Shown: positions 21,218-33,611 of the stretch, piece after piece
How positions within the stretch are numbered: the first letter of the stretch is position 1
How the letters are laid out: each line of letters starts with the position of its first letter
Assembly: GCF_003609605.1 (NCBI RefSeq)
Contig: NZ_MCHY01000007.1
Coordinates: forward strand, 1-64,000
DNA: 64,000 nt
DNA from: Ammoniphilus oxalaticus
GTDB taxonomy: Bacteria > Bacillota > Bacilli > Aneurinibacillales > RAOX-1
Direction: 5' to 3'
Made by a program: the position numbers and the translations under genes
The notes under the pieces: generated by a model
What the model saw: the letters and a program-made list of their open reading frames with translations, nothing else
What the model was told of the DNA's origin: nothing
Databases searched by the model: none

Positions 21218-21273
21218 ACGTAATGGAAACTTTCCTATTCAACTAGTGAATGAGATTCCATTACGTGTATAAT
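21218..21273 (+). promoter_or_regulatory. Inverted repeat overlapping a probable cas3 promoter
   Basis: ACGTAATGGAA (21218-21228) is repeated exactly in inverted form as TTCCATTACGT (21256-21266). A smaller dyad ATTCA...TGAAT lies between the arms. A perfect TATAAT follows at 21268-21273, so the dyad covers the -35 region. No good -35 hexamer is seen, which fits an activator- or repressor-controlled promoter. It may be an operator for cas3. Confidence 0.6.
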
Positions 21274-21312: not shown

Positions 21313-21352
21313 AGGTTGATGAGTGAACGTAATTTTCCATGGACATCAATCT
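21313..21352 (+). promoter_or_regulatory. Hairpin A upstream of cas3, paralogous to one after cas2
   Basis: AGGTTGAT (21313-21320) pairs with ATCAATCT (21345-21352), with one G-U pair. The loop AGTGAAC-G-TAA-TTTTCC-ATGGA closely matches the loop of the hairpin at 29545-29589, while the stems differ by compensating changes. It ends 30 bases before the cas3 ATG and would be in its 5' untranslated region. Confidence 0.65.
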
Positions 21353-21382: not shown

Positions 21383-23809
21383 ATGAGTTTTATCGCGCAT
21401 ATTCGAGCAAGTGACGGTCAGAAGCAGACAGTAGAAGAACATCTATTGGAAGTAAAGCGTTTGGCGGAAATCTCTGGAGAAAAATTTGGAGCCAAACACC
21501 TAGCAGGTTTGGCGGGATTGTTGCATGATTTTGGGAAATGCACGCATCAATTTAAGGAATATATTTTAGAGGCGTTTAACAATCCTGAGGCGCCGCCCAA
21601 GCGAGGTAGTGTAGACCATTCAACCGCTGGTGGTAAACTGTTGTACGAGCTTTATCATAATCGAACGGACAACCCTTACTTGATTATCCTTGCTGAAATC
21701 GTGGGGAACGTGATTATTTCTCATCACTCCTATTTGCAAGATTTTTTGGCGCCTACTTTAGAGTCACCTTATTTAAGGCGTGTTCGCGATAAGGAGTTGG
21801 ATGATTTTCATCGCGCTCAGCAATACTTTTTTGAGTATGTAATGAATCGAAATGATTTTGATGTCTATGTCTCTGAAGCGGCAATGGAATTAGAGAATTT
21901 TTTGCAAGAAACGCCGCCTGAAAATCATGCTGAGCAACTTATGTTTTTAACGAAGTTTATCTTTAGCGCATTGATAGATGCGGATCGAACGGATGCTCGA
22001 TTGTTTGAGGAGAATACACTGTATAATTCAAAAAACAATGGTTTATTGTTCAAAACCTATTATGAAAGATTAATGGGTAAGCTAAATTCCTTTAAAAATG
22101 AATCTCTCGCGAGTCATCCCATTAATATCCTTCGCTCCGAGATGTCAGAACAGTGTGAACGATTTGCAATAAAACCATCAGGAATCTACACGTTATCGAT
22201 CCCGACAGGTGGAGGTAAAACGCTTGCTAGTTTAAGGTATGCTCTTAAACATTCACTAGAATATAGTAAGGACAGAATTGTGTTTGTTGTTCCTTTTACG
22301 ACAATCATTGAACAAAATGCCGCGGAAGCTCGTAAAGTGTTACAAGATGAAATGAATATTTTGGAGCATCACTCAAACGTGATTGACGATGGAGTTGATG
22401 ACGAAGCACAAGATGGCATCGTTAACATGCGACAAAAGTGGAAATTAGCGAAGGACACTTGGGACGCCCCGATTATCTTTACGACGATGGTCCAATTTTT
22501 AAACGCATTTTACGCTAAAGGAAGTCGCAATATTCGCCGCCTACATAATCTTAGCAATTCAGTGATTATTTTTGATGAAGTTCAAAAAGTTCCTGTCAAA
22601 TGCGTATCTTTGTTTAATCAGGCTTTAAATTATTTAAAATATTCCACAGATTCGAGCATTGTTCTTTGCACGGCGACCCAACCGGCTTTGGATTTTGTCG
22701 AGCATAAGCTGAAAATCGGATCCGACGCAGAAATGATCGATCAACTAAACGAAGTGATTGAGGCTTTTAAAAGGGTTGAAATCATTGATAAAGCAACGAA
22801 TGGACCGATCAACAATGAGCAACTTGTCGATTTTATCGGGCAATTAATGGGAGGAATACAAAGTATTCTCGTCATTTTAAATACCAAATCGGTAGTAAAG
22901 GATTTATACCAGAAGCTAATTGCGCAAGGAACGGACTATGAAATATTCCATCTAAGTACTTCGATGTGCGCCGCGCATCGAAATGACATTTTTAAAAAAA
23001 TAAGAGATTGTCTTGGCAACAATCAAAAAATCATATGCATCAGTACGCAACTTATAGAGGCTGGGGTAGATGTCAGCTTTGATAGTGTTATTCGTTCCCT
23101 TGCTGGATTGGATTCAATTGCCCAGGCCGCTGGTCGATGCAATAGGCATGGAGAAAAAGAGATCGGAACCGTCTATGTGATTGACCATGAACAAGAAAGA
23201 CTGGATCGGTTAGAAGAGATAAAAAAGGGGAAGGAAGTTGCCAAAAAAATCCTTGTTGATCTTAAGCGTCATCCTAGCGTATATGGGGGTCACCTGTTAT
23301 CTAGGGAGGCAATGGAAAGATATTTTCAGGAATATTACACGGATATGGAAACAAATTTAAATTACTTTATCCCTAAGCTAGAAAAGGAAATGATTGAGTT
23401 GCTCACCTCTCATCGGCGCGGGAACAGCAGCCTCGCTAAGGCTTATCAAAGTAAACATGGTAGCCTTCCGCCATTGTATTTAATCAATAGTTACTACTCA
23501 GCAGCGGAACATTTTGAAGTCATTGATGATATGACTACAGCTGTGTTAGTTCCCTACAAAGAAGGTGAGGAGCTTATTGCTGCGTTAAATAGTTATGCCG
23601 GCTCATTTGAAGATGTAACAAAGTTCTTAAGAAAAGCCCAGCAGTATTCAATCAATTTATATAAACATGAGTTTGAATACTTAGCTCAAGATGGTGGGCT
23701 TGTTTCTTTTTTGGATGGCCAAATCTTCGCTTTGACAGAAGGGGCGTATCATGGGGAATTTGGGTTCAATCTCGAAAACGACAGTGAATTTGGCTTTCAA
23801 TATTTTTAG
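21383..23809 (+). CDS. cas3: CRISPR-associated nuclease/helicase Cas3 (type I-C)
   Basis: 808 residues. Cas3 is recruited to target DNA by the I-C Cascade, nicks it and degrades it while unwinding. The N-terminal HD nuclease has H48-D49 in LLHDFGK and HH in ISHHSYLQD. The helicase part has PTGGGKTLAS (Walker A lysine K279), IIFDEVQKVP in place of DEAH, CTATQPAL, STQLIEAGVDVSF and QAAGRCNRHGE. Start ATG with AAAGGGGAAAGG upstream. It has its own promoter region and is followed by a terminator, so it may be expressed separately from the other cas genes. Confidence 0.97.
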   Translation: MSFIAHIRASDGQKQTVEEHLLEVKRLAEISGEKFGAKHLAGLAGLLHDFGKCTHQFKEYILEAFNNPEAPPKRGSVDHSTAGGKLLYELYHNRTDNPYLIILAEIVGNVIISHHSYLQDFLAPTLESPYLRRVRDKELDDFHRAQQYFFEYVMNRNDFDVYVSEAAMELENFLQETPPENHAEQLMFLTKFIFSALIDADRTDARLFEENTLYNSKNNGLLFKTYYERLMGKLNSFKNESLASHPINILRSEMSEQCERFAIKPSGIYTLSIPTGGGKTLASLRYALKHSLEYSKDRIVFVVPFTTIIEQNAAEARKVLQDEMNILEHHSNVIDDGVDDEAQDGIVNMRQKWKLAKDTWDAPIIFTTMVQFLNAFYAKGSRNIRRLHNLSNSVIIFDEVQKVPVKCVSLFNQALNYLKYSTDSSIVLCTATQPALDFVEHKLKIGSDAEMIDQLNEVIEAFKRVEIIDKATNGPINNEQLVDFIGQLMGGIQSILVILNTKSVVKDLYQKLIAQGTDYEIFHLSTSMCAAHRNDIFKKIRDCLGNNQKIICISTQLIEAGVDVSFDSVIRSLAGLDSIAQAAGRCNRHGEKEIGTVYVIDHEQERLDRLEEIKKGKEVAKKILVDLKRHPSVYGGHLLSREAMERYFQEYYTDMETNLNYFIPKLEKEMIELLTSHRRGNSSLAKAYQSKHGSLPPLYLINSYYSAAEHFEVIDDMTTAVLVPYKEGEELIAALNSYAGSFEDVTKFLRKAQQYSINLYKHEFEYLAQDGGLVSFLDGQIFALTEGAYHGEFGFNLENDSEFGFQYF

Positions 23810-24039: not shown

Positions 24040-24768
24040 ATGAGGAATTCGATTCAATTTGAAGTATATGGGAGTTACGCTTTATTTACAGATCCATTAA
24101 CAAAGCTTGGTGGGGAAAAGATGTCCTACCAAATACCTACATACGAGGCTTTGAAAGGAATTACAGAATCGATTTACTGGAAGCCAACGCTTTTAATTAT
24201 CGTTGATAAAGTTCGCGTGATGAACCCGATTCGTATGGAGTCAAAAGGTATGCGTCCAATTGAGTATGGTGGTCGGGGCGGAAACACGTTGGCTCATTAC
24301 ACGTATTTAAGAGATGTTAAATATCAAGTTCAGGCCCATTTTATTTTTAATCCGCATCGTCCAGATCTCGCTTTTGATCGTAATGAGCATAAGCACCATA
24401 ATATTATGAAACGTTCGTTAAAGGTCGGCGGTCGCAGAGATATTTTCCTAGGGGCTAGAGAGTGTCAGGCTTATGTCGAACCTTGCTTGTTCGGCTCAGG
24501 TGAGGGGTATTATGATGATTACGATGGTGAAATCCATTTTGGAACGATGATGCACGGCATTAATTATCCAGACGAAACGGGCAGAAATGAAATGGAAGCC
24601 CGTCTATGGCAGCCAAGCATGAAGAATGGTGTAATCGAGTTTGTTCGACCTGATCAATGTGCTCACGTTCGCAAAATTACCGACATGGAGCCGAGACATT
24701 TTGATGAGACGAATATGACCTCTGCAGAACAATTATGGCGGGAGCTTGAAGAGGAGTGGGATCGATGA
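24040..24768 (+). CDS. cas5: Cas5c, crRNA-processing Cascade subunit (type I-C)
   Basis: 242 residues. In I-C systems Cas5c replaces Cas6: it cuts the precursor crRNA within each repeat and stays on the 5' handle. The catalytic triad described for Bacillus halodurans Cas5c has counterparts here as Y46 (ESIYWKP) and K118-H119 (NEHKHHN), so processing activity is expected. [19 protein letters not shown] at the N-terminus is the family signature. The gene overlaps cas8c by ATGA. Confidence 0.96.
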
Positions 24769-26696
24769 GTTGGCTACTCCACCTATATGAAACTTATGAA
24801 TCCAATCAGGATCAAGTAGGCGTCATTGAAAAAAAGAGAAACGGACAAGAATATACGCTTTTGCCCATTTCCCACACAACTCAAAACGCCCATATCGATG
24901 TGAACATTACAGAGGATGGGCAATTTCACTCTGCAACAGTCATCGCTAAGAGTGATGCCAGCACGTTGATTCCGTGCACGGAAGATGCCGCGAATCGAGC
25001 CGGTTCGAAGGTCGCTCCCTACCCATTACATGATAAATTGAGTTACGTAGCGGGGGATTATATCGCGTATGGCGGAAACGTGAAAAATAAAGAACATTTC
25101 GCGGAGTACCTGAAACAGTTGGAGAAATGGACAAATTCACCGTATGCAATGGATGTAGTGAAGAGCATTTACCGCTATGTAAGTAAAAGATCTTTGATAC
25201 AAGACTTGGTTAATGAAAAAATACTTGTTGTTGATGATGACGGACAGCTACTAAGTAAATGGAACAAAGATTATGAGGATCGTTATGGAGAACGACCTGC
25301 TATTTTTTCGGCGCTAACTGGGGATCAAGAAGGCGCTTTTGTACGTTTTAACGTCCGATCGCCCGACAAGATTTTAACGGATATATGGAAATGCGCAGAA
25401 ATGTATCAATCTTTTATTCGCTACTATCAGGCAAAGCTAGGGAATGAGAATGAGGATGTCTGTTACGTAACAGGGAAGAGATTGCCGAGCACCGATAAGC
25501 ATACGAATAAGATCAGGCATGCCGCAGATAAGGCCAAGTTAATTTCCGCGAATGATTCCAGTGGTTTTACATACCGAGGTCGGTTCTCGGAGAGTAATGA
25601 GGTCGCTAATGTCAGCTATGAAGTTTCGCAGAAAGCTCACAATGCTTTAAAATGGCTGATTAACCGTCAAGCAAAGATCGTTGATGGTCGCGTATTTCTC
25701 GTTTGGGGAAATGAACAACTCGATCTTCCCGATCTCGTTGAAGATAGCTTCGACTTATTTGGAAGCGTGTCAACTGAATCAAAGACTGAGCGCTCGCCAA
25801 ACACGTTAAAGGAGTTTGCCCGAGAGATCGAAAAGTCGATCGACGGGTTGCGAGGGGATTTATCAACGACGCATTCCAGTGTATATATTTTGATCCTTGA
25901 TTCAGCGACAACTGGTCGAATGGCTGTTCTGTACTATCGGTATATGGATAAAGATCTTTACTTGGACCGATTAAAGGCGTGGCATACAACATGTGTGTGG
26001 CGTCATCGCCATCGAAAAAATAGTGAGGGTAAGATGGTGTCCTATATCGGTTCACCGTCCACAAAGGATGTTGCTTTCGCTGCTTATGGACCTCTTGCAA
26101 GCGACAAGATCGTGAAAGGGCTCATGGAACGTTTAGTTCCTTGCATTGTAGATGGGCGGTCGTTGCCGTTGGATATAGTGAGAAGCGCTGTTCAGCGGGC
26201 TTCGAATCCCGTGTCGATGGACCGATGGGAATGGGAGAAAACATTAAGTGTTACCTGCGCCCTTATAAACAAAATCTTAAGCGACCAAAAGGGGGAGTAT
26301 GATATGGCCTTAGATACAGAGAACAATGATCGCGATTATTTATTTGGACGACTGCTAGCCGTTGCCGATGTGTTAGAAAGACGCGCTTTGGGCCCAAGTG
26401 AAACCCGTTCTACGAATGCGATTCGTTATATGAATTCTTTTTCACGACATCCGGAGAGAACATGGAAGACGATTCAGGAAGGTTTGCAGCCATACCAAGC
26501 ACGTCTAGGAACGAAAGCTCGTTATTTATCCGGATTAATCGATGAAATCGCGTCTCGAATAGAGATTACGGATTTTAATAACCAACCTTTGTCAGGAAAA
26601 TACTTGTTAGGATTTTATAGTCAACGACATGAACTGTATCAAAAAAGAGAAACAGATCGGGGCGTAAAAGAAAACGAAGCGCGAGGGGGAAATTAA
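24765..26696 (+). CDS. cas8c: Cas8c (Csd1), large Cascade subunit
   Basis: 643 residues, the large subunit of the I-C Cascade that recognises the PAM. It is of the Csd1 family: [14 protein letters not shown] at the N-terminus, CYVTGKRLP with a cysteine, and YNxF-like central helices with LGENGSR-type segment replaced here by [13 protein letters not shown]-like [17 protein letters not shown] choose the ATG at 24765 that overlaps the cas5c stop, with GAGGAG upstream, rather than the GTG at 24756. In I-C, a small subunit can be made from an internal start within this gene; I did not identify that start with certainty. Confidence 0.94.
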
Positions 26697-26697
26697 A

Positions 26698-27561
26698 ATG
26701 TCTACATTAGACCAAAAAATCGATTTTGCAGTCGTCTTATCGGTTACAAAAGCAAACCCGAATGGGGATCCACTTAATGGAAATCGTCCGCGTCAAAATT
26801 ATGACGGTCATGGCGAAATATCAGATGTTGCGATTAAAAGAAAAATTCGAAACCGTTTGCTAGATATGGGGGAATCTATTTTTGTGCAGTCCGATGATAG
26901 AAAAGTAGACGAGTTTGATAGTTTGCGATCTCGTGCGGATGCACACCCGGAACTGGCTAAGGCCAGTAAAGGAAAGAATAAATCAAGCGATGAATATGCT
27001 CGCCTGGCTTGTCAAGAGTGGATCGATGTGCGCAGTTTCGGCCAAGTATTCGCGTTTCGGGGAGCGGGTAGTGGTGGTGGGGTATCCGTCGGGGTCAGAG
27101 GGCCCGTGTCAATCCATACGGCGGTAAGCGTGGATCCGATCCAGATTACGAGCATGCAAATCACGAAAAGCGTCAATTCCGAACCAAACGAAAAAAGGGG
27201 ATCGGACACGATGGGGATGAAACACCGTGTTGATTTTGGAGTTTATATTTTTTATGGCAGCATCAATACACAATTAGCGGAAAAAACAGGATTCACAAAG
27301 GAAGATGCATTAAAAATCAAAGAATCTCTCATTTCTTTATTTGAAAACGATGCTTCTTCTGCCAGACCTGAAGGCAGCATGGAAGTACATAAGGTCTACT
27401 GGTGGGAACATGCGTCAAAACTAGGACAATATTCGTCCGCCAAAGTTCATCGGCTATTAGATATCAAAAAACGGACAGAGGAACCAAAGTCGCTTAATGA
27501 TTATGCGATAGAGCTATATGAACTGGAAGGATTAACCACCGAGGTTTTGGATGGGCGCTAA
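26698..27561 (+). CDS. cas7: Cas7 (Csd2), Cascade backbone subunit
   Basis: 287 residues. Cas7 polymerises along the crRNA to form the Cascade backbone. Csd2 features are KIDFAVVLSVTKANPNGDPLNGN, SDVAIKRKIRNRL, RSFGQVFAF and the late VHRLLDIKKR. It begins two bases after cas8c, with GAGGGGGAAAT as ribosome binding site at the junction, and overlaps cas4 by 11 bases. Confidence 0.96.
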   Translation: MSTLDQKIDFAVVLSVTKANPNGDPLNGNRPRQNYDGHGEISDVAIKRKIRNRLLDMGESIFVQSDDRKVDEFDSLRSRADAHPELAKASKGKNKSSDEYARLACQEWIDVRSFGQVFAFRGAGSGGGVSVGVRGPVSIHTAVSVDPIQITSMQITKSVNSEPNEKRGSDTMGMKHRVDFGVYIFYGSINTQLAEKTGFTKEDALKIKESLISLFENDASSARPEGSMEVHKVYWWEHASKLGQYSSAKVHRLLDIKKRTEEPKSLNDYAIELYELEGLTTEVLDGR

Positions 27562-28210
27562 TAATGAAGAAAACTATCTGATGTTGTCAGGCATCCAACA
27601 TTATCAGTTTTGTAAACGTCAATGGGCGTTAATTCATATTGAACAGCAGTGGGCGGAAAATGTGAAAACATTGGAAGGACAATTTTTACACCAAAAAGCG
27701 GATCAGCCCTTTATAAAAGAAAAGAGGGGAAACAAGTTAATTGTACGAGCGATGCCAATTCAGTCTAACGAGCTCCGAATATCTGGTGTTTGCGATGTGG
27801 TTGAATTCATTAAAGATGATCAAGGCGTTGAGCTACATGGTCATGAAGGGAGGTATGTCGCGCATCCTGTTGAATATAAGCGCGGCAAACCGAAAACAAA
27901 CGATGCCGATTTGTTACAATTGACCGCTCAAGCCATGTGTTTAGAAGAGATGTTGCTATGCGATGTAACACACGGCTTCATGTATTATCATGAAATAAAA
28001 CGTCGACTCGAGGTGGCGATTACGGACTCGTATAGAAATAAGGTTCAATCCATAGTTTCGGAAATGCATGACTATTATGCGCGTAATCATACTCCAAAAG
28101 TAAAAATAGGATCATTCTGTCGTAACTGCTCCCTTCAACATATTTGTTTACCTAAATTAATGAATAAGGAATCCGTTGAAAGTTTTATTGGAAGGAAAAT
28201 CAGGGAGTGA
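27551..28210 (+). CDS. cas4: Cas4 exonuclease for PAM-selected spacer acquisition
   Basis: 219 residues, RecB-like nuclease with an iron-sulfur cluster. Cas4 trims prespacers and helps choose the PAM together with Cas1-Cas2. One cysteine (HYQFCKRQW) lies near the N-terminus and three in CRNCSLQHIC near the C-terminus, forming the cluster ligands. Nuclease residues appear as SGVCDVVEF and HPVEYKRGK. It overlaps both neighbours (cas7 stop; GTGA with cas1). Confidence 0.95.
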   Translation: MGANNEENYLMLSGIQHYQFCKRQWALIHIEQQWAENVKTLEGQFLHQKADQPFIKEKRGNKLIVRAMPIQSNELRISGVCDVVEFIKDDQGVELHGHEGRYVAHPVEYKRGKPKTNDADLLQLTAQAMCLEEMLLCDVTHGFMYYHEIKRRLEVAITDSYRNKVQSIVSEMHDYYARNHTPKVKIGSFCRNCSLQHICLPKLMNKESVESFIGRKIRE

Positions 28211-29238
28211 AAAAACTTTTAAATACACTATACGTCACCCAGCCTGATGTTTATTTAGCTCTGGATGGAGGAAATGTTGTTCTTTTGAAGGATGAAGAAA
28301 GACTTGGTCGACTGCCTTTGCATAATTTAGAATCGATTATAAGCTTTGGATATACGGGAGCAAGTCCGGCATTAATGGGGTATTGCGCGGATCACAACAT
28401 CTCCATTGTGTTCTTGACGATGAATGGGAGATTCTTAGCTAGAGTTGTTGGAGAAAGTCGGGGCAATGTAGTGCTGAGAAAGAAGCAATATCGGTTGTCA
28501 GACAATGAAAATTCGTCTGCAAAAGTGGCTCGAAATTTCATAATGGGTAAAGTGTATAATCAGAAGTGGATGATCGAGAGAATGACCAGAGAACATCCAC
28601 TTCGAATCGATGTGGAGCAATTTAAAAAGATCTCCCAACATTTATCTGCTTTGATGGTCGACATTCACGCTTGTGAAGATTTAGAACGGTTACGAGGGCT
28701 AGAAGGACAAGCTGCGATTAGCTACAACCGTTTATTTAATCAAATGATCTTGCAGCAAAAAGAAGATTTCTATTTTCATCATCGCTCCCGTAGACCGCCG
28801 ATGGACAACGTAAACACGATGCTGTCGTTTGCGTATACGTTGTTGGCGAATGATACGGCTGCTGCGTTAGAAACAGTTGGACTGGATGCTTATGTCGGCT
28901 TTCTACATCGGGACCGTCCAGGAAGAGCGTCATTGGCTTTAGATGTCATGGAAGAGCTACGCGGAATTTTTGCAGACAGGTTTGTATTAAGTCTCATTAA
29001 TCGGAGAGTGATCGGTCCATTAGATTTTTATAAAAAGGAAAACGGAGCCGTCCTGATGACAGATGAGGCAAGGAAAAAGTTCTTAGAAGCCTGGCAAAAT
29101 AGAAAACAAGAAAAAATAACACACCCCTTTCTAGGAGAAAGGATGTCGTGGGGCCTTGCGCCACATGCGCAGGCATTATTATTAGCCCGCTATTTACGAG
29201 GCGACCTTGACCAATACCCGCCATTCCTATGGAAGTAG
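28207..29238 (+). CDS. cas1: Cas1 integrase
   Basis: 343 residues. Cas1 integrates new spacers at the leader end. Metal-binding residues are seen as the glutamate in RGLEGQAAISYNRLF, and the histidine and aspartate in GFLHRDRPGRASLALDVMEELR. The start is GTG, overlapping the cas4 stop by GTGA, with CAGGGA upstream. The type I-C subtype fits the neighbouring csd1 and csd2 genes. Confidence 0.97.
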   Translation: MKKLLNTLYVTQPDVYLALDGGNVVLLKDEERLGRLPLHNLESIISFGYTGASPALMGYCADHNISIVFLTMNGRFLARVVGESRGNVVLRKKQYRLSDNENSSAKVARNFIMGKVYNQKWMIERMTREHPLRIDVEQFKKISQHLSALMVDIHACEDLERLRGLEGQAAISYNRLFNQMILQQKEDFYFHHRSRRPPMDNVNTMLSFAYTLLANDTAAALETVGLDAYVGFLHRDRPGRASLALDVMEELRGIFADRFVLSLINRRVIGPLDFYKKENGAVLMTDEARKKFLEAWQNRKQEKITHPFLGERMSWGLAPHAQALLLARYLRGDLDQYPPFLWK

Positions 29239-29248
29239 GTGAAAGTAA

Positions 29249-29539
29249 TTGCTAATCTTGATCACGTATGACGTTTCAACAGTGGATAAAGCAGGGAGAA
29301 GAAGACTTCGTCACGTGGCAAAGGCTTGCCAAAAATATGGACAGCGGGTGCAAAACTCTGTTTTTGAGTGTATAGTAGATGCAACGCAATTCACAAAATT
29401 AAAGATGGAGCTTGTTAATTTGATTGATATGGAGGTAGACAGTCTTAGGTTTTATAGACTGGGTAACAATCACAAGAGTAAAGTAGAACATTTTGGTGTG
29501 AAGGAATCGATGGATCTAGAAGGGCCTTTAATCTTTTAA
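29249..29539 (+). CDS. cas2: Cas2
   Basis: 96 residues, normal size. Cas2 dimerises and bridges Cas1 dimers in spacer integration. It starts LILITYDVSTVDKAGRRRL, the ferredoxin-like first strand with the conserved aspartate. The start codon is TTG at 29249, with AGGTGAAAG before it. It is the last cas gene, followed by 174 bp of leader. Confidence 0.95.
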   Translation: MLILITYDVSTVDKAGRRRLRHVAKACQKYGQRVQNSVFECIVDATQFTKLKMELVNLIDMEVDSLRFYRLGNNHKSKVEHFGVKESMDLEGPLIF

Positions 29540-29713
29540 CCCTCGGTGCGGATAGTAAGTGAACATAAATTACCTAGGACATCCGCACCTAGGATATTGT
29601 CGATAATTATCGAATGTGACATTTAATTTAACTGAGTTCTTTATTCGAATAAAGAAAATAGTGATTTTTGAGTAAAAAAATCTTAATTTGCTCACTTTTA
29701 GTCAAAAATCGCT
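29540..29713 (+). promoter_or_regulatory. CRISPR leader with stacked palindromes
   Basis: AT-rich leader between cas2 and the first repeat. In order it holds hairpin B (29545-29589), a 12-bp perfect palindrome CGATAATTATCG (29601-29612), a 20-bp perfect palindrome of two TTCTTTATTC/GAATAAAGAA arms (29637-29656), and a 9-bp inverted repeat GATTTTTGA/TCAAAAATC (29663-29671 and 29702-29710) ending three bases from repeat 1. Such elements could serve array transcription or integrase recruitment. Confidence 0.8.
29545..29589 (+). promoter_or_regulatory. Hairpin B after cas2, paralogous to the one before cas3
   Basis: GGTGCGGAT (29545-29553) pairs perfectly with ATCCGCACC (29581-29589). The loop contains AGTGAAC-A-TAA-ATTACC-TAGGA, matching hairpin A (21313-21352) at most positions. 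Stem pairs four, five, seven and eight differ in both arms between the two copies while staying paired. Confidence 0.65.
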
Positions 29714-32700
29714 GTCGCACCCTTCGTGGGTGCGTGGATTGAAATTCGCTGTACGAAGGAATCAAATGTGCATCGCTCAAAGTCGCACCCTTCGTGGGTG
29801 CGTGGATTGAAATTCCGCTCCACATCTATTTAAAGTAACGAGGTTATAGTCGCACCCTTCGTGGGTGCGTGGATTGAAATTTGTGCTAGGATGAATATGG
29901 CCGACATAAACAGTGTCGCACCCTTCGTGGGTGCGTGGATTGAAATGGGTCATTTTGAAAATCTTCAACATAATGACCCCGGTCGCACCCTTCGTGGGTG
30001 CGTGGATTGAAATGCCTGTTGGTGACGAGCCTATCGTTACTACGAACGTCGCACCCTTCGTGGGTGCGTGGATTGAAATTCTACGCAATCAGCGACGGTC
30101 AGCTTGCGGCCGGGTCGCACCCTTCGTGGGTGCGTGGATTGAAATCGTCCTTTTCAATAGCGGCATTTATCCACAAAACGTCGCACCCTTCGTGGGTGCG
30201 TGGATTGAAATACTAGGAAATCTAAGTCTTTATTTATCTCGCGAGAAGTCGCACCCTTCGTGGGTGCGTGGATTGAAATATCTGTGGGATCTATAATCAC
30301 ATTGCTTGGGACTGGTCGCACCCTTCGTGGGTGCGTGGATTGAAATGGCTATACAGAACAATGACCTCAATGTTTATGTAGCGTCGCACCCTTCGTGGGT
30401 GCGTGGATTGAAATGGTTTACAGGTGGCTAACAAAAGACGTTAAGGAGGTCGCACCCTTCGTGGGTGCGTGGATTGAAATTACCAACAGATTTGGAAAGA
30501 GAGTTACGAGTTGTGTCGCACCCTTCGTGGGTGCGTGGATTGAAATAATTTTTTAGGAGGTTTGTTATCTACATCAGACAGTCGCACCCTTCGTGGGTGC
30601 GTGGATTGAAATCTTTTTCGTTGTACCTGAACGATGGAACTTGTTTGTCGCACCCTTCGTGGGTGCGTGGATTGAAATAATAGTCCCGCACTCTGTGTAG
30701 TCCAAGAAAAAAAGTCGCACCCTTCGTGGGTGCGTGGATTGAAATTCACTGGTTAACCCCTCAACAAACTGGATAATGCGTCGCACCCTTCGTGGGTGCG
30801 TGGATTGAAATTCTTGTTGTAACAACACCATCACGGCGACGGAAAGTCGCACCCTTCGTGGGTGCGTGGATTGAAATTTTGGTGACACTTAACTCATGTC
30901 GATCGACTGACGTCGCACCCTTCGTGGGTGCGTGGATTGAAATTTATAACACAACCATCTACAACGAGCGTGGCATATATGTCGCACCCTTCGTGGGTGC
31001 GTGGATTGAAATAGCGCAACCCGCAACTGAATACGACAAGTTGCAGATTCAGTCGCACCCTTCGTGGGTGCGTGGATTGAAATAAGAAGTTGAGGCGATT
31101 GTTGAGGAGGAGGCTTAAGTCGCACCCTTCGTGGGTGCGTGGATTGAAATTTCTGGTGTAGCCCCCTCAACCCACTCTCCCCCGTCGCACCCTTCGTGGG
31201 TGCGTGGATTGAAATGACTATCTTTGGTATGTTCGAGTTACCTTGAAAAGTCGCACCCTTCGTGGGTGCGTGGATTGAAATCGTTGTGTAATGAGTGCCA
31301 CTCAATCATACATAACGTCGCACCCTTCGTGGGTGCGTGGATTGAAATAAGTCATAAAAGTCCACGCGATGCCCCTCGGATAGTCGCACCCTTCGTGGGT
31401 GCGTGGATTGAAATATGACCAATAGGGCATCGTTTAGGTCACTCATATAGTCGCACCCTTCGTGGGTGCGTGGATTGAAATCCTCTAAAATCCCATCAAC
31501 CGTCTTTTGTGTGCGGTCGCACCCTTCGTGGGTGCGTGGATTGAAATTTTGAAGTCTCCCATTGTCTAACAAGGATATTTAAAAGTCGCACCCTTCGTGG
31601 GTGCGTGGATTGAAATCTGTGTGTCTGTCGCAATGTAATCATCACCCGACAGTCGCACCCTTCGTGGGTGCGTGGATTGAAATATGCTTACGATGGTATT
31701 AGGACTGACACCCAACAGGTCGCACCCTTCGTGGGTGCGTGGATTGAAATAACTAACCACGTTTTTATAGATCCGTTAGAGCTAGTCGCACCCTTCGTGG
31801 GTGCGTGGATTGAAATATCAACTAGCACATCATCAGTTAACCCTCGCTTAGTCGCACCCTTCGTGGGTGCGTGGATTGAAATGCATCTGGGGCAATCCAT
31901 TACCTCACCCCCGTACGTCGCACCCTTCGTGGGTGCGTGGATTGAAATACATCGTCCATGACCGTTTGGTTTTAAATGTATAGTCGCACCCTTCGTGGGT
32001 GCGTGGATTGAAATTGTCCAGTGGGCATATAGGTGATTTCGGGCATAGAGTCGCACCCTTCGTGGGTGCGTGGATTGAAATTGTTCCAATCCGAATAATT
32101 TATAGCGCAACGCCGTCGCACCCTTCGTGGGTGCGTGGATTGAAATTCGAAGTAAGCGGCGTTAAAGACTACGAAGAACTGGTCGCACCCTTCGTGGGTG
32201 CGTGGATTGAAATCGTCAGGCCCTCGCAATCCAACATAAAAGCACGAGTCGCACCCTTCGTGGGTGCGTGGATTGAAATATTGTTCTGAGTTCAAGTACA
32301 AAAGAGAGGTTACGTCGCACCCTTCGTGGGTGCGTGGATTGAAATTTTAATTGGTCAACACCTTGTACATTTAGATTAAGTCGCACCCTTCGTGGGTGCG
32401 TGGATTGAAATTTTAATTTCGGTAACCCTGTGGCTTGTGATTACTGTCGCACCCTTCGTGGGTGCGTGGATTGAAATATTCGACTGACTCCCCTCTCCCC
32501 TCCTCCCCGTTGTCGCACCCTTCGTGGGTGCGTGGATTGAAATATTTTATGCCTCCTCAAATCGTCTAACTCCGCTTGTCGCACCCTTCGTGGGTGCGTG
32601 GATTGAAATAAAATTGTTCGTCCACCTTAGATCCTGTTAATTCTTGTCGCACCCTTCGTGGGTGCGTGGATTGAAATGATTTATCTAATGTTGAATATCC

Positions 32701-33611
32701 ACCAATCGCAGAGTCGCACCCTTCGTGGGTGCGTGGATTGAAATAATTTGGCTTGTGCTGTATCAATCCCGACTAGGCGTCGCACCCTTCGTGGGTGCGT
32801 GGATTGAAATGATCCTGACAACGTTTTAATGCAAGATGCTAAAACGTCGCACCCTTCGTGGGTGCGTGGATTGAAATAGATTCACCTGTGACGAGTCCTA
32901 ATGTTCTTTCAGTCGCACCCTTCGTGGGTGCGTGGATTGAAATTTTAATTTCGGTAACCCTGTGGCTTGTGATTACTGTCGCACCCTTCGTGGGTGCGTG
33001 GATTGAAATCCCCTTGTGCTAATTGCATCCGTTTATTTTGAGCAGTCGCACCCTTCGTGGGTGCGTGGATTGAAATTTTAATCCAAACCGCAGAAGGCGC
33101 ACTTAATGAAAGTCGCACCCTTCGTGGGTGCGTGGATTGAAATAATTGGTAAAGTATCATGAGAACTATATCCGGTAGTCGCACCCTTCGTGGGTGCGTG
33201 GATTGAAATAAGCATCAGTGATGCTACTACTGTAAACAATACGGTCGCACCCTTCGTGGGTGCGTGGATTGAAATAATATAAAAAGAACAATGTCGTAGC
33301 CTATAATGGATGTCGCACCCTTCGTGGGTGCGTGGATTGAAATATGCTGTCCCCGTTTATCCGCATCATGAATATGTCGTCGCACCCTTCGTGGGTGCGT
33401 GGATTGAAATAACCTCTTTGGGTCTGAGTATCTTTGTAGAATTATGTCGCACCCTTCGTGGGTGCGTGGATTGAAATCTGAGGGGGCCAAGTTTACCGAC
33501 ACAATTTACACAGTCGCACCCTTCGTGGGTGCGTGGATTGAAATTAAAGAAACGCCAGCGGGGGCACAAAGCAAGGTGGGTCGCACCCTTCGTGGGTGCG
33601 TGGATTGAATT
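29714..33611 (+). CRISPR. Type I-C CRISPR array, 59 repeats and 58 spacers
   Basis: Counted by eye: 59 copies of a 32-base repeat that begins GTCGCACCC, has the arm GGGTGCG and ends TGGATTGAAAT. The arms CGCACCC and GGGTGCG form the I-C stem around TTCGT. Spacers are mostly 33-37 bases. The leader and cas operon lie at the 5' end, so new spacers enter near 29714. The last repeat (33580-33611) differs at its 3' end (GAATT for GAAAT), as expected for the trailer end. Internal repeats look identical. Spacer 41 (32412-32445) and spacer 49 (32944-32977) are identical. Some spacers translate like phage structural genes, but I could not search for targets. Confidence 0.98.

Follow-up and report, generated by a model that had tools for sequence, protein, structure and literature searches.

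The window, as we call the whole stretch of DNA analysed here, comprises 64,000 nt of Ammoniphilus oxalaticus, whose genome measures 3.32 Mb, and contains a type I-C CRISPR-Cas locus on the plus strand. Utilising the list of open reading frames and relatives detected by tblastn, we placed cas3 at 21383-23809, cas5c, cas8c and cas7c at 24040-27561, cas4 at 27551-28210, cas1 at 28207-29238 and cas2 at 29249-29539. The three effector genes carry these names in annotated relatives, and we take them to be the same genes in the window from their order and from those relatives. The type I-C array occupies 29714-33611 with 59 repeats and is the sole place in the genome where this repeat occurs at up to 3 mismatches.

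Two hairpins on the plus strand lie before cas3 and after cas2. Hairpin A (21313-21352) consists of a loop at 21322-21343 between arms at 21313-21321 and 21344-21352, and ends 30 bp before the start of cas3. Hairpin B (29545-29589, arms at 29545-29553 and 29581-29589) sits directly 3' of cas2 as the leader-distal element of the array; an inverted-repeat search gave longer, imperfect 13-nt arms (29541-29553/29581-29593). Its interior (29554-29580) has a family majority of about AAGCGCACATGAATTnCCTGGGAG. The rest of the leader (29590-29713) separates the right arm, taken to end at model column 46, from the first repeat by 125 bp, and includes a leader-proximal inverted repeat (arms 29660-29677 and 29696-29713) that abuts this repeat. 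The latter has 18-nt arms (89%), and arms of the form AGCGATTTTT...AAAAATCGCT, alike by eye, occur in some Bacilli leaders. A strong inverted repeat upstream of cas3 (21218-21266) with 14-nt arms (93%) adjoins a TATAAT and is a possible operator. Elsewhere in the same genome, contig C6 (L211, 1500-1700) appears to hold a decayed second I-C leader, made up of an element-like inverted repeat, a AGGTTCGCAT half-site and a degenerate repeat.

A first-pass annotation of this DNA had described A and B as twin hairpins with a shared loop and compensating changes in their stems. Both hairpins are present at the coordinates it gave, and the shared loop form AGTGAACRTAAWTTWCCWWGGA occurs, at up to 3 mismatches, at exactly two places in the 3.32 Mb genome, namely A and B. 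Among 100 dinucleotide shuffles of the window none contained the form, the pattern having been derived from the two copies themselves. The 26-nt loop of B is identical to A at 21/26 positions, the best of 100 mononucleotide shuffles of the window reaching 19, and the five differences spare AGTGAAC and GGACATC. Arms like those of A (9 pairs, at most one G-T, gaps 0-4) surround a random 22-nt loop at 64 of 63,800 window positions, or about 0.1%. The two hairpins are of unequal size, with 9-nt arms separated by 22 nt in A and 13-nt arms (92% complementary) separated by 27 nt in B. As RNA, B folds better than chance (z values of -3.7 and -4.3); the fold of A is at chance level (z about -0.5), with 56 and 59 of 200 shuffles being equally good. 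The changes at pairs 4, 5, 7 and 8, reported for both arms, are indeed seen once A is shifted by one pair. However, two sequences alone amount to two different palindromes rather than covariation, and the proper test lies in the wider family.

With the Cas7c of the window as query, type I-C was found in 37 of 398 Bacilli genomes, own genome included. We took the 36 other Bacilli I-C loci, of which 34 hold cas2; the remaining two (L183 and L189) lack it since their contigs end. An element of 48-49 nt follows cas2 in all 34. Alignment A1 has 34 rows, L185 being omitted as a near-duplicate of L184, and model R1 was built from 33 Bacilli loci plus the window. Across the 34 loci the arms are near-invariant (GTGCGAA and TTCGCAC) and enclose a conserved, oriented interior. 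R1 matches the window at 29543-29591 with 53.9 bits, the window sequence itself being part of the model. The element is found in 36 of the 37 genomes with Cas7c, where 33 of the loci and the window had trained R1 and the single miss (G208) is a contig that ends before cas2, and in 60 of the 398 Bacilli genomes overall.

The arms of B remain complementary throughout this family. Two-sided changes have occurred in single lineages, from G-C to T-A in L192 and from A-T to G-C in the window and L199, and column 11 has changed from T-A to C-G in 6 of 34 rows, with 10 rows unpaired there. Double changes affect 7 of 11 pairs, above all of 500 shuffles. Columns 4-10 of 98 different elements of 49 nt comprise 686 cells, of which 669 hold Watson-Crick pairs; the other cells include 10 G-T versus 4 A-C. 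Past column 11, the inner pairs are mostly not conserved across the family. Rfam 15 gave 0 matches at gathering score within the window.

R1 also recognises the element outside the Bacilli, where each locus is assigned the class of the named genome used as its centre. It matched 19 of 20 clostridial loci (L235 was missed), the one actinobacterial I-C locus examined, and five of the seven cas2-bearing gammaproteobacterial loci, L240 and L242 at an E of only about 0.03; in L243 and L244 the element was found by eye. Among eight named plasmid loci, five gave a match (L317 with an E of 0.01, L319, L321, L322 and L324), two show the element by eye (L318 and L323), and L320 has no array in the stretch examined. 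Altogether, similar half-sites are seen in eight classes: Bacilli, Clostridia, Gamma- and Alphaproteobacteria, Desulfovibrionia, Deinococci, Bacteroidia and Actinomycetes. A search of 61 relatives with the loop pattern returned mostly 3-mismatch matches, of which that in G018 alone was recognised as the element. The first-pass annotation is thus supported in part: B recurs with paired arms, is CRISPR-linked and has no Rfam match at gathering score, and a twin arrangement typical of type I-C is not supported.

The element accompanies the array and not cas2. It occupies 107 distinct places in the 398 genomes: 35 on the cas2 side, 4 at secondary arrays, 57 that were examined further and 11 outside this examination, including G334. 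Of the 57, 55 precede CRISPR repeats that are I-C-like or I-G-like (38 by script and 17 by eye, some degenerate), and 47 have no match to the window's Cas proteins within the stretch. Extra arrays located away from cas2 in L188, L201 and L202 each bear the element, and in L192 some 170 bp part it from cas2, yet its distance to the repeat is still 116 bp. A leader motif should lie in array leaders whatever the position of the cas genes, and this is what we observe. At two places (G159 6918125 and G052 C12) matches stand without recognisable repeats, and reading of the neighbouring ORFs revealed no TnpB-like or cas gene.

Four other identities were considered and rejected. An element of the cas2 3' UTR is ruled out by the secondary and orphan arrays that bear it and by L192, which keeps the distance to the repeat and not that to cas2. 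A hairpin that is repeat-derived or of Cas5c type does not fit L202, L203 and L205-L207, whose repeats differ while the arms stay GTGCGRA/TYCGCAC. No terminator was found. A LexA-like half-site, CGAAC, has the wrong spacing here, and its loop copy is not constant.

Type I-G arrays carry the element as well. One locus (L292, genome G190) combines the type I-G genes Csb1, Csb2 and Csx17 with type III-A genes and has two arrays, both bearing the element. Its Cas1, Cas2 and Cas4 share 42, 44 and 36% identity with those of the window; of the effectors, cas5 and cas7 are at chance level (E about 0.1) and cas3 and cas8 gave no match. In an actinobacterial I-G sample of 12 stretches from 11 genomes, three (L358, L359 and L362) have cas4/1/2 and arms at the expected place (7 and 9 bp by script, and about 6 bp by eye in L362), four (L360, L361, L364 and L365) have repeats and neither cas4/1/2 nor arms, and five have no array. 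This agreement between the presence of cas4/1/2 and that of the arms is only suggestive, as the arm lengths overlap chance and array orientation is partly uncertain.

For 115 elements we determined how far the first repeat lies from the right arm's end. Thirteen values were inspected, nine of them being reset by hand and four kept, and the repeat start of L236 and L237 is an estimate. The 115 distances cluster near 94, 104, 115, 126, 137.5, 148 and 158.5 bp. At a period of 10.5 bp, Rayleigh R reaches 0.66 over all elements and 0.57 over 66 genus classes, where the best period is 11.2. Under a conservative null in which whole classes are shifted together, p is 0.03. Off-phase distances exist (48, 80, 108, 119, 132 and 196 bp, with 134 bp twice at the edge), several of them from single or decayed repeats. 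Eleven later distances from other phyla and type I-G all fall within one 4-bp arc of the 10.5-bp turn, given that they are not all independent and that arm ends are accurate to 1-2 bp. The three actinobacterial I-G distances (128, 123 and 126 bp) lie in or just outside that arc, two of the three just outside. The element thus stands at a helically phased distance from the leader-repeat junction, at this p of 0.03 and with the off-phase cases named, as would be expected of a leader motif. In short, almost every array of this type that was checked has the element before it, and in most cases the spacing to the insertion point equals an integral number of DNA turns.

Some leaders contain a third half-site. 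We searched 117 leaders (L243 and L244 being added by eye) for an exact extra copy, equally oriented, of the 6 nt with which their own right arm begins. Such a copy is present in 17 leaders, in all 17 at -53 to -56, compared with a mean of 1.8 and a maximum of 9 in 200 mononucleotide shuffles; it is missing in the other 100, the window's included. Where the arms read TTAGC, so does the third half-site in L240, L242, L243 and the Bacilli locus L281; two further TTAGC-armed Bacilli elements (L192 and L299) have no exact copy. Three actinobacterial I-G leaders show CTCGC at -51 with GCTCG arms, and 6 of 10 further leaders have a third half-site at -54 to -58. In L178 and L286 an extra copy occurs at -73 besides that at -54. 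A copy outside the hairpin that changes jointly with the arms is the trace expected of a DNA-binding reader with changing specificity, and could in principle also stem from alternative RNA pairing. A search for Cas1 residues co-changing with the TTAGC half-sites gave, in the case of L192, 4 columns, a number within the range of the controls (mean 0.8, maximum 6).

We therefore favour, at a probability of roughly 0.58, the reading that B forms the leader-distal portion of a composite DNA site which belongs to I-C and I-G leaders and is read by the adaptation module. Judging from the sequences, the element beside the array probably docks the insertion machinery. The putative site would comprise two inverted half-sites (GTGCGAAY ... 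RTTCGCAC) around an oriented interior, joined in some leaders by the third half-site, some 54 bp ahead of the first repeat. Its reader, acting on double-stranded DNA, may be Cas1-Cas2 with Cas4 or a partner travelling with them. The leader would then be bent or looped, and the site would mark the correct array end at which spacers are integrated, a role that leader motifs have in types I-E and I-F. Half-sites in eight classes, and an element common to I-C and I-G, which share adaptation genes and not effectors, indicate that the reader probably travels with the system. Of the three options originally offered for the hairpins, namely RNA, Cas-protein site and DNA signal, a putative DNA site for Cas proteins fits best; a cis-acting RNA is less likely given the distance phasing, the third co-changing half-site and the arrays without nearby cas genes. 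To our knowledge, Bacilli have no IHF.

Inverted repeat motifs in type I-F leaders are, in outline, contacted by Cas2 during Cas1-2/3 integration with IHF (PMC12259127). By analogy with these, the integrase would be the natural candidate reader. The element of B resembles the I-F motifs as far as they are summarised there, both being inverted repeats in a leader and the I-F ones being tied to integration via leader folding. It differs from them in subtype and sequence, and its own integration role is putative. Several observations sit less easily with docking. At 94-160 bp the element is rather far away for the integrase to touch it directly, most leaders have no exact third half-site, off-phase distances exist, and a plasmid locus annotated without adaptation genes (L319, below) keeps the element. 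In addition, a regulator of a promoter could produce the same phasing, and the wobble counts in the stem are compatible with RNA.

In an alternative reading, the element is an operator or activator site for array transcription, and for cas3 through A, with a regulator binding the half-sites upstream of an array promoter. Spaced inverted half-sites would suit a DNA-binding regulator, GATAAT-like hexamers can be seen by eye between element and repeat in some leaders, A lies in the 5' region of cas3, and in one viral contig (L370) the element stands just before the likely start codon of a Cas12f-like gene. However, a consensus scan of 111 leaders, after omission of four elements with a distance below 90 or above 165, yielded no clear peak of promoter-like pairs, and the window's leader has no consensus promoter. 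The occurrence of the half-sites in eight bacterial classes makes a host regulator improbable, and the distance classes are taken to the repeat and not to a promoter. We consider transcriptional control unlikely. A cis-acting RNA hairpin, closing the cas mRNA on its 3' side or opening the pre-crRNA on its 5' side and acting in antitermination, stability or Cas5c binding, would account for the folding of B, for the double changes in 7 of 11 pairs and for the L370 element in a likely 5' UTR, but is highly doubtful in view of the one-turn distance classes, the third co-changing half-site, the poor fold of A, the mostly unkept inner pairs beyond column 11 and the arrays with no cas genes nearby.

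Hairpin A fared differently from B. The earlier proposal implied a twin copy before cas3 in type I-C loci, whereas 0 of 61 other loci score as high within 450 bp upstream of cas3 (the best reaching 5.6 versus 9.9 for A). The first-pass annotation had expected related loci to share the loop motif and conserve the stem, an expectation that A fails and B passes. Against the family matrix A ranks 4th in the window, and the maximum of 939 null windows is 10.8 versus its 9.9; R1 run on the own genome did not recognise A at E values up to 10. From the interior it has retained AGTGAAC and GGACATC; the family half-sites are absent, and it carries G where column 23 is A in 34 of 34 rows of A1. Cas7c was found in 0 of 14 other genomes of the order. 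We regard hairpin A as a derived copy peculiar to this lineage. If functional, A would let the reader of B act on cas3 expression.

It is quite possible, if somewhat short of an even chance, that A is a decaying, functionless duplicate of the leader element. Its restriction to this genome, its weak family score and the second, decayed leader that seems present elsewhere in the genome all suit such an origin. On the other hand, its arms still pair over 9 positions (one G-T) in another sequence, and AGTGAAC and GGACATC are intact despite five loop differences. That A and B form a regulatory pair, bound by one Cas protein with A autoregulating the cas operon, would explain why the loop form is found at just two genomic places, both at this locus, with 21/26 identity and arms in register; we doubt it, as no other I-C locus among the 61 has an equally good site, the arms of A are without the family half-site, the invariant A of column 23 is G, and A is just 4th by the family matrix and missed by R1.

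The element of B extends to viral contigs with miniature Cas12f-like genes. Exact-pattern scans matched 15 viral contigs, two of which (L372 and L375) share one identical effector. In 13 of them repeats follow the element (a single one being visible in each of L387 and L391); L369 is truncated, and in L370 the element has the array on its opposite side. A Cas12f1-like TNB domain above the Pfam cut-off is encoded beside the element, in genes or gene segments, in L370, L372 (the same protein as in L375), L388, L390 and L392, and L374 has a TnpB-like gene below curated cut-offs. None of these stretches (L370, L372/L375, L374, L388, L390 and L392) matches cas1 or cas2 of the window, L391 alone doing so among the 15. 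The repeats of L388, L390 and L392 are I-C-like too. Viral distances to the repeat are about 114 bp (L390), 125 bp (L371 and L392), 127 bp (L376), 129 bp (L393) and 138 bp (L373 and L388), with longer ones of about 171 bp (L374) and 179 bp (L372/L375); in L389 the repeat start is uncertain. They lie near the phase of the cellular distances, some being 3 bp off. A second element about 204 bp from a single repeat in L377, from the same phage as L372, is off phase. In L370, where the element precedes the likely start codon, the first ATG given by the ORF finder is at its other edge, and the element covers a GGAGG in the likely 5' UTR. Four relatives of the L370 effector (L380-L383) have no R1 match in the stretches examined, and the element is thus no fixed part of such Cas12f-like systems.

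The presence of the element at viral Cas12f-like arrays with no I-C cas1 or cas2 in view suggests borrowed adaptation, in trans. Tentatively, and with considerable reserve, we propose that the element is a portable docking signal, by which a host I-C or I-G Cas4-Cas1-Cas2 would load any array bearing it in trans, including viral and stripped plasmid loci. L319, a Lysinibacillus plasmid I-C locus, is annotated with cas5c, cas8c and cas7c only, that is, without cas3, cas4, cas1 and cas2, and has kept the element before a 3-repeat array; it therefore needs adaptation in trans or points to another role. L245, also without adaptation genes, has no array in view. Adaptation in trans is described, at summary level, for type VI-B arrays served by a type II-C Cas1 (PMC8092290). 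The viral loci would be alike in that an array without cas1/2 is served by the integrase of another system, and they differ in that here this is deduced from leader and repeats.

Phased leader motifs are a known kind of feature, and part of this element may be listed in a leader-motif paper from 2025. According to the portion consulted of PMC12814883, such motifs are specific to type and taxonomy. Titles and abstract openings of the literature covered, a comparison that leaves the two likeliest leader-motif papers outside, contained no description of the I-C/I-G element. For type I-G, the excerpted text of PMC10504553 mentions, as a possibility, help for Cas4-containing complexes from host factors bound to the CRISPR, and on this partial account how the Cas4-containing I-C and I-G systems find the right array end looks unsettled. 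A conserved, phased element with multiple half-sites is a direct target for experiments on the choice of array end. It can also serve to locate arrays, orphan ones among them, and to determine their orientation, and it offers a link, open to testing, from viral miniature Cas12 arrays to the host adaptation machinery.
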